Assembly: GCA_023382385.1 (NCBI GenBank)
Contig: JAHDVH010000003.1
Span: 124,001-188,000, forward strand
From: a bacterium
GTDB taxonomy: Bacteria > Electryoneota > RPQS01
Reading direction: 5' to 3'
DNA: 64,000 nt
Position 1 is the stretch's first letter, and each line of letters begins with the position of its first letter. This document shows positions 46,597 to 51,723 of the stretch, one piece after another. The notes under the pieces were generated by a model that worked only from the letters and a program-made list of their open reading frames with translations, had not been told where the DNA came from and ran no database searches. The position numbers and the translations under genes are program-made.

Positions 46597-49098
46597 GTGA
46601 CCGCAAAGCCTGCCAAGGCGGTTCCCGCCCCACATGTTGTGAAGAAGCCTATGCCGCACTGGCTGCCCGATGTCCTCGGTGTGCTGGTGCTCTATATCGC
46701 TGTTGTCGGCCTGTTTCACGAGATTGTCCTTAGCAATAAAGTGTTCTCGGCAGGTGATGACACAGTGGCATCGATGTCCTGGAACACTTTTGCAATTCAG
46801 GAGGCTGAAAAAGGCAAATATCCGCTCTGGTGTCCGGAAATCTACGGCGGATTCCCCTCTTTTGCGGCGGGCGCATACTCCAATTTCGAACATGTCGAAG
46901 CGCCATACGCATTCGCATATCGCTGGGCTAATCCGCGCTATTGGGCGGATATGTTCACGAATTACGTCTTGCTGCTGGGGAATTACTCCGGCCCAAATCG
47001 AGGTGAAAAGTGGCTCGTCGCCTTGATGCTCTATGCGGGTCTGCTCGTCTTTTATGTCGTGCGAAGGCTCAAGTTCGCGGTGCCTATTGCAGTGCTCTGC
47101 GGACTTGTGCTCGCATGGAATCCCTATTTCATCTCGCTAATCACTGCATCTCACGGCGGTAAACTTGCTACCTTCATGTACATCCCGATTCTGATGTTTC
47201 TGAGTTGGCAAATTTTCGAGAAGCGAAGACTGCTTGACTTAGCGCTGTTTGCCATGGTCTTTGGGTGGCAGATTCAGCACGGGGGACATACGCAGGTTCT
47301 ATTCTACAGCGGGGTTTCGGTGGGAATACTCTTCATCACTTGGGCGATTCACGAAATCCGCTCGGGAGGAGTTTTGTCTGCACTAACGGCCGGCGGACAG
47401 TTGGCAGTCGCGGTGGTGCTGGCCGTATGCGTCGGATCTCTTTGGTACATCCCTTTGCTGGAGTACGTGGAGTACTCAATACGTGGAGTGGGTCCCGCGA
47501 TTGGCACCGCAGGCCAAAGCGGTTACACAATGGACGACGCGACGGCATGGAGCATGGCCCCATCGGAGTTGATTACATTCGTCTTTCCATCATGGTACGG
47601 GCTGAAGTCCCCAACCTACTGGGGGGACATGCTCTTCACATCATCGAGTTTCTATTTCGGCATTGTGCCTCTGTTGCTCGCGATTCTCGCGTTGTTTGGC
47701 AAGAAATCGCGCTTCATCTGGGCTTTGATCAGCCTATCCGTATTTTCAATCCTGCTTTCCTTTGGCAAGCACTTTGAGAGCTTCTACTCAATCTTCTTCA
47801 ACTATGTTCCATTCTTCGACAAGTTCCGGACACCGTCACTGATCCTCCTATTGGTTATGATGTGTGCTGCAATCCTCGCAGCGTTTGGTTTCCGCAAACT
47901 CGAAGAGCAGCAAGACAACGAGAAGTGGAAGAAGACGTTCCGCTACGTTCTAATTGGCTGTGCCGTGCTGTTGGTCATCTCGCTTGTGGGCGGCGAAGGC
48001 TTGGCAAAAGGTCTGGCAAGTCTAACTAAGGACGGAGAAGCACAGCGCTATCAGCCGCAGCAGATAACCATGCTGGTGAACGAGCGCGCCTCTATGCTTG
48101 CTGGTGATCTCACGTGGCGTCTGTTACTTTTGACGTTGGCCACTGCGGCCATTTACTTATTCATGCTCAAGAAACTTGCAAAGTCAGCTCTGATCGGCGG
48201 ACTGCTGTTGCTGACCGCGATTGACCTTGGAAGTTTTGCGGGAGAGTTTTTTGATCCTCAGCCAAAAGCGCAACAGGCCGCACTATTGCAGACAAACCGC
48301 GTCGTGCAACAGCTTCAGCAGGACAAAGAACTCTTCAGGGTCTTTCCAGCTGGACGGCTGAATCAGGACAATCGGTGGGCGGCATGGGGAGTTGAATCTC
48401 TGGGCGGCTATCACGGCGCGAAGATGCGGAGTTGGCAGGACATGGCCGACTATTTGTTCTATAACGGCACGAATCGTTCCTTCCCGCTCAATCTCGAGTT
48501 GTTTGCATCGCTTAATTGTAAGTACATTATTGCCGAGGGCCTCTTACCGCCCGAGTTTGGGTTGCAATTGGCTTATGAGGATGGTAGTGCTAAGATGGCT
48601 GCTTACCGCCTGCCCAATGCTAAGGAACGCGCCTATTTCATTGACTCGGTGCTCGTGATTCCTGACAGGCGGAACGCATTTGAAACGATGCGGCGCCCGG
48701 GCTTCCCATTCACTCAAATTGCTGTGATTAACAATGACTTGCCGGGACGTTTGGGCAGCGATCCCACGTCTGAAGTCAGAATACTAAAGCATGAAGCACA
48801 CCGCGTGGAAATTGAAACGCGCCGAAACGAACCCGGCCTGCTTGTCCTTGCAGATGCATACTATGAGCCAGAGTGGGTTGCCAAGGTGGACGGGAAACAG
48901 GAGAAGATATTTCTGGTGAACGGGTTTACTCGAGGGCTTTACCTGACTGCAGGTCAACATCAGGTCGTCTTCGAATACGCGGGAAATCGCGAGAGACTGG
49001 GCGTCAATGTAGCGACAGTCTCTCACTTCGTTGTGCTCCTGCTGGTTGGTGCAGGATTCTGGCTTGCGCGACGCCGTAAAACGGAGATCGTGGATTGA
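46597..49098 (+). CDS. YfhO-family multi-pass membrane protein in the lpt operon
   Basis: An 833-residue membrane protein with about twelve to fourteen helices and a ~250-residue soluble C-terminal part (about 570-800), followed by a last helix ([17 protein letters not shown]). The layout and sequences such as [11 protein letters not shown] and the RTPSLILLL helix match the YfhO/GT-C-like family. In Bacillus the family member works with CsbB in glycosylating lipoteichoic acid. The GTG at 46597 has CGGAG 6 bases upstream. Its stop overlaps the lptB start by 4 bases, so it is fixed within this operon. A role in sugar modification of LPS or lipid carriers is inferred. Confidence 0.8.
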
Positions 49099-49865
49099 AC
49101 GATTCTCCAGACATAGTTAACCTCTCCTCAAGCGAAGCGTTAACGACGACCTTGCGAGGTGAACACCTTGTCAAGTTTTACGGACGACGCAAAGTTGTGG
49201 ACGAAGTCTCGGTACAAGTGAGAACCGGCGAAATTGTTGGCCTTCTGGGCCCAAACGGAGCCGGCAAAACGACCACGTTCTATATGATGACGGGAATGAT
49301 CAGGCCGCGTTCCGGACACGTTTTCCTGGGAGATGCCGAAGTCACGGATTGGCCGATGTTTCGACGTGCAAGGTTAGGAATGGGCTATCTGTCGCAAGAG
49401 CCGTCTGTTTTTCGCAAGCTGACCGTGCGAGAGAACTTAATGGCAATCCTCGAACTGTTGCCAATCACGCGTTCTGAGCGCAGAAGCCGTGCTGAGGAGT
49501 TGCTGGCCGAGTTCAGACTGGAACACGTGATCAATAATAAGGGCTTTCAGTTGTCTGGCGGTGAGAGGCGACGTGTGGAGATAGCAAGGTCGCTGGTGAC
49601 ACGCCCGAAGTTCATGCTTTTGGACGAACCCTTTGCCGGGATTGACCCGATTGCCGTAGCCGACATCCAGAGCATCGTTCGGTCATTGAAAGACCGTGGG
49701 ATTGGAGTTCTCATCACGGATCACAACGTTCGCGAGACTCTGGCAATAACTGACCGGGCCTATCTGATCTTTAGCGGGCGGCTGTTGATGGAGGGTTCCG
49801 CAGAGTTCCTTGCCTCGAACGAAGAGGCGAGGCGAATCTATCTCGGCGATTCTTTCCGCCTTTAG
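49095..49865 (+). CDS. lptB: LPS export ABC transporter ATP-binding protein LptB
   Basis: A 256-residue ABC ATPase. Walker A GPNGAGKT lies near residue 54, followed by the LptB-type [12 protein letters not shown] and the Q-loop [14 protein letters not shown]. Signature [10 protein letters not shown] is near 154, Walker [16 protein letters not shown] near 175, and the switch His is in [11 protein letters not shown]. It powers extraction of LPS from the inner membrane with LptFG, which are not in this window. The start is a TTG with GGAG 8 bases upstream. Confidence 0.96.
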
Positions 49866-50166
49866 GCATGCTATAACACCTGCTTTGCCGAAGCAAGTCG
49901 GGAAGTAACACTATGATTCGACATGCAATAGTTAGACAGAATTATATTATCCCTCTTAAAGTAATCAAAAACAGTGTTTAGATACTAAGACAATCGTTTG
50001 TTCAAAATTACATACCTGGTCAAATTGCAGTCTGCTCCCTTGTGGCACAGGGGTTGCATGAAAGGAGAACTGATCTGCCACGGTGAATGGCTGTGCGGGG
50101 TTGTCCTCAAAACTCCGATTTGCAGAGTCCACTCCTCCCTACCGCTCGGACCAGAAGGGTAATTCG
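49866..50166. other. Intergenic region between lptB and rpoN
   Basis: This 301-base stretch holds an AT-rich part (49935-50025), a -24/-12 sigma-54 promoter (50043-50058) and the rpoN leader. A 34-codon frame starting at 50058 begins inside the promoter and is not a credible gene. No lptB terminator with a T-run is clear; TGCTT/AAGCA near 49881 makes only a 5-bp stem. Confidence 0.6.
50043..50058 (+). promoter_or_regulatory. Sigma-54 promoter in front of rpoN
   Basis: TGGCAC, 5 bases, TTGCA: the -24 GG and -12 GC are 12 bases apart exactly as in the sigma-54 consensus. Transcription would start near 50069, about 98 bases before the rpoN ATG. The AT-rich DNA upstream would suit activator looping. 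Confidence 0.75.
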
Positions 50167-51642
50167 ATGGAACTCAGACAAGTCCTCAAACCCGAACTTC
50201 AACAATACCTTCAACCGCAGCAGATACTGCGGAGCGAGCTCATTCAGCTCCCTATGCTCGAGCTGGAATTGCGCGTGCGTGCCGAGCTGCAGGAGAACCC
50301 GTTCCTCGAGGAAATTGCTGAAGACGAAGTGGTTGTGGAACGAAATGTCGCTGAAGTCGAGACGGACAACTCTGCAGCCTCGTTGGACGATCGTTCCGAC
50401 GCCGATGAGGTCACCGCGCGGACAAGCCGAGAGGAGTCGTCCCGTCAGGATGATGAGGTCGATTGGGACAGCTTCTTGAGCGATGAGGACCCGTCTGTGT
50501 ACAAGGCTTCACGATTCACTTCTTCCGGAGGTGAGGAGCTGACTGAATTGCCCCGCCCGTCTGTTCAATCCCTCGCCGAGCACCTTGAAGATCAACTGCG
50601 GCTTCAGCGGCTGACTGAAGAGGAATATCGCGTAGGACAGTATATCATCGGCTCTATTAATCGTGACGGGTTCTTGAGCTATCCTATCGAGGAAATCGCC
50701 AGAGAGTTGAACGTGCCCGTGCCGCTGGCGTTGCGAGTGCTGTCCGTGGTTCAAGAGCTCGACCCCCCGGGAATCGGCGCGCGGGACTTGCGGGAGTGCC
50801 TGCTGATTCAATTGCGGCAGAAAGATGACCCCCGGGAGTACCGTGTCGCGATGCGCATGTTAGTTGAAGGATACGACGACTTCATGAACAAGCGTTTTGA
50901 AGTCGTGGCACGCAAACTCGGAATTACTCTCGATGAAGTTAAGTCTGCCTACGAAGATATTCGCCGCTTAAATCCCAAACCGGGCGAAGGATACTTCGAT
51001 GAAAAGCAAAATTACATTGTCCCGGACCTTGTCGTGCAGCGCATTGACGATAACGGGAATTTCAATGTCTATTTGAATGACGGCAATACCCCGAACTTTC
51101 ACGTCAATACCGCCTACAAGGAGATGTTCCTCTCGGGGAACACAGACAAGAAGGTCAAGGAGTTTGTTACAAGGAAGCTTGAGAGCGCTCGTTGGTTTAT
51201 CAACGCGATTCACCAGCGGAGGACGACGATTCTGCGCACAATGCGGGCTATCGTAGAACGGCAGAAAGAGTTCTTTATGAAGGGGAGAGAGTTCCTCAAA
51301 CCAATGATTCTGCAGGATATCGCGGAAGACATTGGCATGGATATCTCCACTATTTCGCGTGTCACGAACGGCAAGTACGTTCAAACCGAGTGGGGAGTCT
51401 TCGAACTAAAGTACTTCTTCAGCGAGCGCATGGAAACAAGCGATGGCGAAGAGATTTCAACAAAGGTTATCAAATCGCGCCTGCAGGAGATCATTGAAGC
51501 TGAGGACAAGAGTGACCCTCTGTCGGATCAGGCGATTGCCGAATTCCTCGCCGCGGAAGGATTCCCCATTGCCCGTCGCACAGTGCAGAAATATCGTGAG
51601 CAGCTCAGCATTCCGGTGAAACGACTGCGGCGGGAGATTTAG
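50167..51642 (+). CDS. rpoN: RNA polymerase sigma-54 factor RpoN
   Basis: A 491-residue sigma-54. Region I is the Gln/Leu-rich MELRQVLKPELQQYLQPQQILRSELIQLPMLELE activator-responsive part. An acidic region II linker covers about 60-140. The core-binding domain follows, and the C-terminal DNA-binding part includes the HTH (EDIGMDISTISRVTNGKYVQTEWG) and an RpoN box ARRTVQKYRE near 470. The box has one change from the usual ARRTVAKYRE. The ATG at 50167 has AAGGG upstream and begins at the conserved region I. A terminator follows 41 bases past the stop. Confidence 0.97.
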   Translation: MELRQVLKPELQQYLQPQQILRSELIQLPMLELELRVRAELQENPFLEEIAEDEVVVERNVAEVETDNSAASLDDRSDADEVTARTSREESSRQDDEVDWDSFLSDEDPSVYKASRFTSSGGEELTELPRPSVQSLAEHLEDQLRLQRLTEEEYRVGQYIIGSINRDGFLSYPIEEIARELNVPVPLALRVLSVVQELDPPGIGARDLRECLLIQLRQKDDPREYRVAMRMLVEGYDDFMNKRFEVVARKLGITLDEVKSAYEDIRRLNPKPGEGYFDEKQNYIVPDLVVQRIDDNGNFNVYLNDGNTPNFHVNTAYKEMFLSGNTDKKVKEFVTRKLESARWFINAIHQRRTTILRTMRAIVERQKEFFMKGREFLKPMILQDIAEDIGMDISTISRVTNGKYVQTEWGVFELKYFFSERMETSDGEEISTKVIKSRLQEIIEAEDKSDPLSDQAIAEFLAAEGFPIARRTVQKYREQLSIPVKRLRREI

Positions 51643-51680: not shown

Positions 51681-51683
51681 GGG

Positions 51684-51723
51684 GCCGGTTGCCGAAGGAT
51701 TTGGCAGCCGGCTTCCTTTTTTC
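51684..51723 (+). terminator. rpoN terminator
   Basis: A 10-bp stem with one GU pair, GCCGGTTGCC (51684-51693) and GGCAGCCGGC (51703-51712), with a 9-base loop followed by TTCCTTTTTTC. It is a good factor-independent terminator between rpoN and lon, and it excludes the TTG at 51672 as the lon start. Confidence 0.85.

Follow-up and report, generated by a model that had tools for sequence, protein, structure and literature searches.

Control of rpoN, the gene of sigma-54, by its own product is known in principle from other bacteria, and the present analysis extends it, as a prediction, to Candidatus Electryoneota. A 2025 survey (aRpoN-DB), which covers 33 classes in 16 phyla, finds rpoN enriched among sigma-54-driven genes in eight classes in total, i.e., Bacilli, Clostridia, Erysipelotrichia, Verrucomicrobiia, Planctomycetia, and the alpha-, beta-, and gamma-Proteobacteria, and names Geobacter sulfurreducens and Dokdonia MED134 as bacteria in which autoregulation is documented (PMC12316311). 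The words KSB1, Calditrich, and Electryon are absent from its text. In rhizobia, prxS-rpoN2 of Mesorhizobium loti and Rhizobium etli is regulated by NifA, with rpoN1 as a second copy, and the rpoN of Rhizobium leguminosarum is negatively autoregulated (PMC3538637).

We analyzed a window of 64,000 nucleotides (the whole stretch of DNA under study, G000:C3:124001-188000) from a 2.9-Mb genome, 98% complete, of Candidatus Electryoneota, a phylum that NCBI places in the FCB group. The order is represented by 13 genomes in our collection (G000 to G012, G000 being the window genome). All the genomes compared are metagenome-assembled and few in number; promoter classes were assigned from sequence alone and gene starts were set by comparison. 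As in the aRpoN-DB predictions, a -24/-12 promoter precedes rpoN. The arrangement also resembles that of the rhizobial prxS-rpoN2, where a sigma-54 gene lies on a sigma-54 promoter and NifA is the enhancer-binding protein. However, the rhizobia have a second rpoN and prxS precedes rpoN2, whereas here rpoN is single-copy and predicted to be transcribed alone. R. leguminosarum likewise has a single rpoN under its own control, but this control is negative there and proposed to be positive here. Finally, the sigma-54/FliA flagellar cascade of polar flagellates, with flgB, flgF, and fliC, offers a comparison: the window genome has perfect sigma-54 sites at flgB, flgF, and a gene in the flgM position, a FliA-type flagellin promoter, and an encoded FliA, yet differs in that rpoN itself has a class II-type promoter. 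The original prediction, which assigned a site of sigma-54 type to rpoN and counted few autoregulated cases, holds for the assignment, given the other sites and the conservation described below, but was too strong on rarity, since many classes have predicted rpoN autoregulation in the 2025 survey.

The rpoN locus and its -24/-12 site

The local gene order is YfhO-like protein, lptB, rpoN, lon, and yihA-type GTPase. The features around rpoN are the following:

49095-49865, + strand: lptB, upstream neighbour of rpoN (TIGR04406, E=1.5e-108)
49869-49877, + strand: TGCTATAAC, extended -10-like, candidate basal promoter just after lptB
49933-49962, + strand: TAGACA-N18-TAAAGT, second candidate basal sigma-70 promoter (9/12 consensus)
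49954-49961, + strand: TCTTAAAG, containing TCTTAA, candidate upstream activator element or basal -10
49969-49979, + strand: AAAC-AGT-GTTT, short dyad read in the sequence, weak candidate activator site
50043-50058, + strand: sigma-54 promoter TGGCAC-AGGGG-TTGCA (TGGCACAGGGGTTGCA), perfect match, 124 nt before rpoN
50069 (about), + strand: predicted sigma-54 transcription start upstream of rpoN, placed 12 nt from the GC element
50069-50166, + strand: 98-nt leader of the predicted sigma-54 transcript
50167-51642, + strand: rpoN (sigma-54), 491 aa (TIGR02395, E=2.8e-128; Pfam AID, CBD, and DBD)
51681-51715, + strand: intrinsic terminator after rpoN, a 16-pair stem followed by CTTTTTT

The genome search returned one match to rpoN, which is thus single-copy. 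Its ATG at 50167 agrees with the starts in relatives, and its translation contains the RpoN box ARRTVQKYRE. The near-ideal TGGCAC-N5-TTGCA site that had been proposed in front of the gene is indeed there, with 0 mismatches and the canonical spacing: the GG of -25/-24 lies at 50044-50045 and the GC of -13/-12 at 50056-50057, with 10 nt between them. It is the sole exact TGGCAC-N5-TTGCW in the window, and a perfect match arises by chance in about 0.0002 of the dinucleotide shuffles of the region upstream of rpoN, a value obtained separately for the nearest relative as well. Matches with up to two mismatches are no more frequent in the window than chance predicts (33 seen vs 34.2 expected), and loose matches do not exceed the reversed-pattern control genome-wide (97 vs 106). 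Hence, we dropped the counts with 1-2 mismatches as evidence, and only perfect matches are informative. The claim of an AT-rich upstream stretch is also borne out, as the 110 nt before the site are 67% AT vs 55% in the whole intergenic region, although this stretch is weakly conserved. Having its own leader and terminator, rpoN forms a separate unit, as had been suggested. The leader matched no Rfam family, its folding is unremarkable (z = -0.14), and no terminator was seen when we looked for one in it. A riboswitch or structured RNA in the leader was therefore rejected, as neither Rfam nor the folding score gave support.

Other sigma-54 sites and candidate activators

The window genome contains 6 perfect -24/-12 matches (TGGCAC-N5-TTGCW), all in the correct orientation and 18-124 nt before plausible gene starts. 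Besides rpoN, they precede flgB (TIGR01396), flgF (TIGR02490), a gene standing where flgM would be expected, a GspG/pilin-like pseudopilin gene, and the gene of an enhancer-binding protein. The third of these encodes 105 aa with no family match and lies directly after fliD-fliS-like genes, a position from which we infer that it is flgM. The enhancer-binding protein has 325 aa, no receiver domain, and a GAFSGA loop, and its gene follows pilT-, pilC-, and pilR-like genes. Its sigma-54 site (G000:C6:53676-53691) has a spacer that is identical in the nearest relative (L226). Carrying its own site, this activator gene probably forms a second feedback loop. In total, the genome encodes 12 strong PF00158 proteins. 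A simple pattern identifies a clear GAFTGA-type loop in 7 of them, and 10 have Fis/HTH-like ends.

Perfect matches also outnumber the reversed-pattern control in 11 relatives (71 vs 30), many of which share the flgF site. In three genera (L100, L224, and L234), RAGTTGYTATAGNGTS stands directly before the flgF site; it resembles the GTTGCTATAGC that precedes rpoN in G006 and is possibly an overlapping second promoter. Small heat-shock genes, assigned as Hsp20-like by eye from their translations, apparently lie directly behind perfect sites in three genomes (L228 in G001, L202 in G009, and L218 in G008). G002, a member of the same family, has 9 perfect sites (0 in the reversed control), and no rpoN was found in this 97% complete genome, where the gene is probably missing because of an assembly gap.

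The sequence search of the clade genomes found no convincing activator site upstream of rpoN, and no inverted repeat that could serve as one is shared among the genomes compared; a sequence similar to the AAAC-AGT-GTTT dyad, ACAGTGGTTTA, occurs in G005 only. The hexamer TCTTAA lies at -88, -87, and -88 from the promoter in G000, G001, and G005, respectively (three-genome distance p about 0.009); its position in G006 is -54. The hexamer could belong to an activator site or serve as a basal-promoter -10. Among clear sigma-54 targets only flgF also has TCTTAA before its promoter, at other distances, and we rejected it as a general flagellar activator site.

Conservation of the site and promoters in the sister clade

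Loss of the site from close relatives had been set as the refuting observation, and the site is instead kept. More precisely, the nearest relative (G001, same genus, RpoN 86% identical) has TGGCACATACTTTGCT, a perfect site 116 nt before rpoN. The spacer differs (ATACT vs AGGGG), both elements are unchanged, and the lptB-rpoN intergenic DNA is otherwise alignable only in part. Two other genera have imperfect matches that keep GG/GC: TGGCACGGAGTGTGCG at -75 from rpoN in G006 (1 mismatch, p about 0.01) and, more weakly, TGGACCGGTTCTTGCT in G005 (2 mismatches, p about 0.02), the latter overlapping a CTTGCAA...TATTTG stretch. In the RpoN tree, G006 groups with G000 and G001 with support 100/99, and G005 joins them with 97/94. 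Upstream of rpoN in the sister clade (G003, G007, G008, G009, and G010) and the outgroup (G011 and G012), we found no match below 3 mismatches except CGGCACGGCTCTTGCT in G010 (1 mismatch), which overlaps a sigma-70-like promoter. In G006, lptB and rpoN are separated by a Septu-like defence unit of two genes (PtuA, E=3e-174; PtuB, E=2.5e-63; L050:1821-3899, C78, JADLDM010000077.1). A perfect direct repeat of 20 bp from the 3' end of lptB borders the unit, which suggests an insertion at the end of lptB, and the elements upstream of rpoN are retained despite it.

The sister clade appears to use another type of promoter. A sigma-70 matrix derived from 14 tRNA promoters in the lineage (TTGACA-N17-TAccTT type) has its best match near rpoN at one shared place in 5/5 genomes of this clade, with a -10 that begins 36-56 nt before the gene. 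The sequence is TTGCTT or TTGATT-N17-TATCTT in G003, G007, G009, and G010, and TTTACT-N16-TAAATT in G008. Single p values range from 0.002 to 0.11, and the case for a sigma-70 promoter draws more strength from the shared position. In the window clade, no matrix match near rpoN is significant, the top one in the window genome being TAGACA-N18-TAAAGT (p = 0.087).

Relatives may in addition place sigma-54 under the flagellar sigma factor FliA, which is encoded in every genome tested. An exact GCCGATAA occurs between lptB and rpoN in G007, G008, G010, and G011 (p 0.002-0.006 each), and it is part of FliA-type elements in G008 (TCAAGTTT-N11-GCCGATAA, i.e., AAGTTT-N11-, L053) and G011 (TAAAGTTT-N12-GCCGATAA, i.e., AAGTTT-N12-, L056). 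These are very like FliA-type flagellin promoters such as TTTAAGTTC-N11-GCCGATAA in the window genome. Since the genome-wide enrichment of GCCGATAA correctly spaced from AAGT is weak (32 vs 27 in reversed-pattern controls), the argument for FliA control is one of position and conservation, not of counts. The equivalent place reads TGCTATAACACC in the window species; TGCTATAAC there has 3 mismatches to GCCGATAA, and we do not claim a FliA promoter in this species. The related TGYTATARMACCTGCTTTGCCG, kept in G000, G001, and G006, resembles an extended -10.

Most of the remaining genomes in the phylum have a gap of 0-40 nt from lptB to the start of rpoN, which makes joint transcription of the two genes the likely ancestral state. 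On the sequences compared, the best reading is that the sigma-54 promoter of the window clade occupies the place of the relatives' sigma-70 promoter, which would make it a clade-specific promoter change. A fuller history, which draws on about a dozen intergenic regions and which we offer tentatively, is that rpoN left the lptB operon and gained sigma-70 and FliA-type promoters, and that one clade swapped these for a sigma-54 promoter, tying the level of sigma-54 in various ways to the flagellar programme. That the sister clades appear to differ by a switch of promoter type is the least expected part of the analysis, and the original prediction overlooked this switch.

Proposed control of rpoN and its alternatives

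We favour a working sigma-54 promoter that would put the single rpoN into its own regulon, with positive feedback conditional on an activator and a basal promoter in addition; we give this a probability of about 0.62. In such a scheme rpoN would probably boost its own expression alongside the flagellum genes. The site, its conservation, the other sites, and the sister-clade promoters are what we see, and from them we infer the promoter's activity, its sign, the activator, and the basal promoter. Since rpoN is single-copy, the loop could not start itself and a basal source is needed. Basal sigma-54 would come probably from TGCTATAAC at 49869, from TAGACA-N18-TAAAGT, or from lptB read-through, and would load RNA polymerase on the rpoN site as a closed complex. 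An active enhancer-binding protein, one of about ten, would then open this complex, and rpoN output would rise with that of its targets, the basal promoter and the activator together setting the threshold of the loop. As flagellar, pilus-type, and activator genes share the site type, the first candidate is a motility or pilus activator, and the likeliest would be one that switches on flagellar or type IV pilus-type genes. Several points count against the model: the site is present in no more than three or four genomes, the search for an activator site gave no convincing candidate, and a sigma-54 site that lacked an activator would be silent or repressive, as the R. leguminosarum case illustrates.

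Repression is the basis of one of the two main alternatives, in which a stalled sigma-54 closed complex blocks transcripts from upstream promoters and rpoN limits itself. A closed complex on the site would stand in the path of the candidate basal promoters, which are 80-170 nt upstream of it, and R. leguminosarum sets a precedent. Against it, the -24 and -12 elements and the distance between them are preserved intact, as in the activated promoters of this genome, and the leader has a ribosome site at a normal distance, although both observations are compatible with repression too. We consider this sign of control unlikely. The other alternative, which we also hold to be improbable, is that sigma-54 binds the site and adds little, the site being a weak or recent addition and a housekeeping promoter expressing rpoN. 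The need of a single-copy rpoN for a sigma-54-independent source, the two candidate basal promoters, and a sister clade that manages without a sigma-54 site at rpoN all fit this explanation. However, the site was kept through spacer turnover in two species and in one other genus, and no significant housekeeping promoter was detected near rpoN in the window clade. A chance match to a short consensus is already disfavoured and very improbable: exact TGGCAC-N5-TTGCA is hardly more frequent genome-wide than its reversed control (3 vs 2), but the nearest relative has an equally perfect site there, which brings the joint chance to the order of 1e-7 (two shuffles, with descent not fully independent), and all 6 perfect sites precede genes. 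That the promoter serves a small RNA or peptide gene in the lptB-rpoN interval rather than rpoN itself, as the 98-nt leader and an in-frame upstream GTG at 50083 might suggest, is scarcely credible, given the leader results above and an extension from this GTG that is not conserved whereas the ATG agrees with relatives.

If the proposed positive feedback is true, a global sigma factor would have become part of its own motility and pilus regulon in an uncultured phylum of the FCB group. Its relatives would then show the earlier states, with rpoN first next to lptB in an operon-like arrangement, then under sigma-70 and possibly FliA promoters, and then under sigma-54, i.e., successive natural rewirings of one global regulator. 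The value of the finding lies in this comparative series and in the extension of the prediction of rpoN autoregulation to the phylum.
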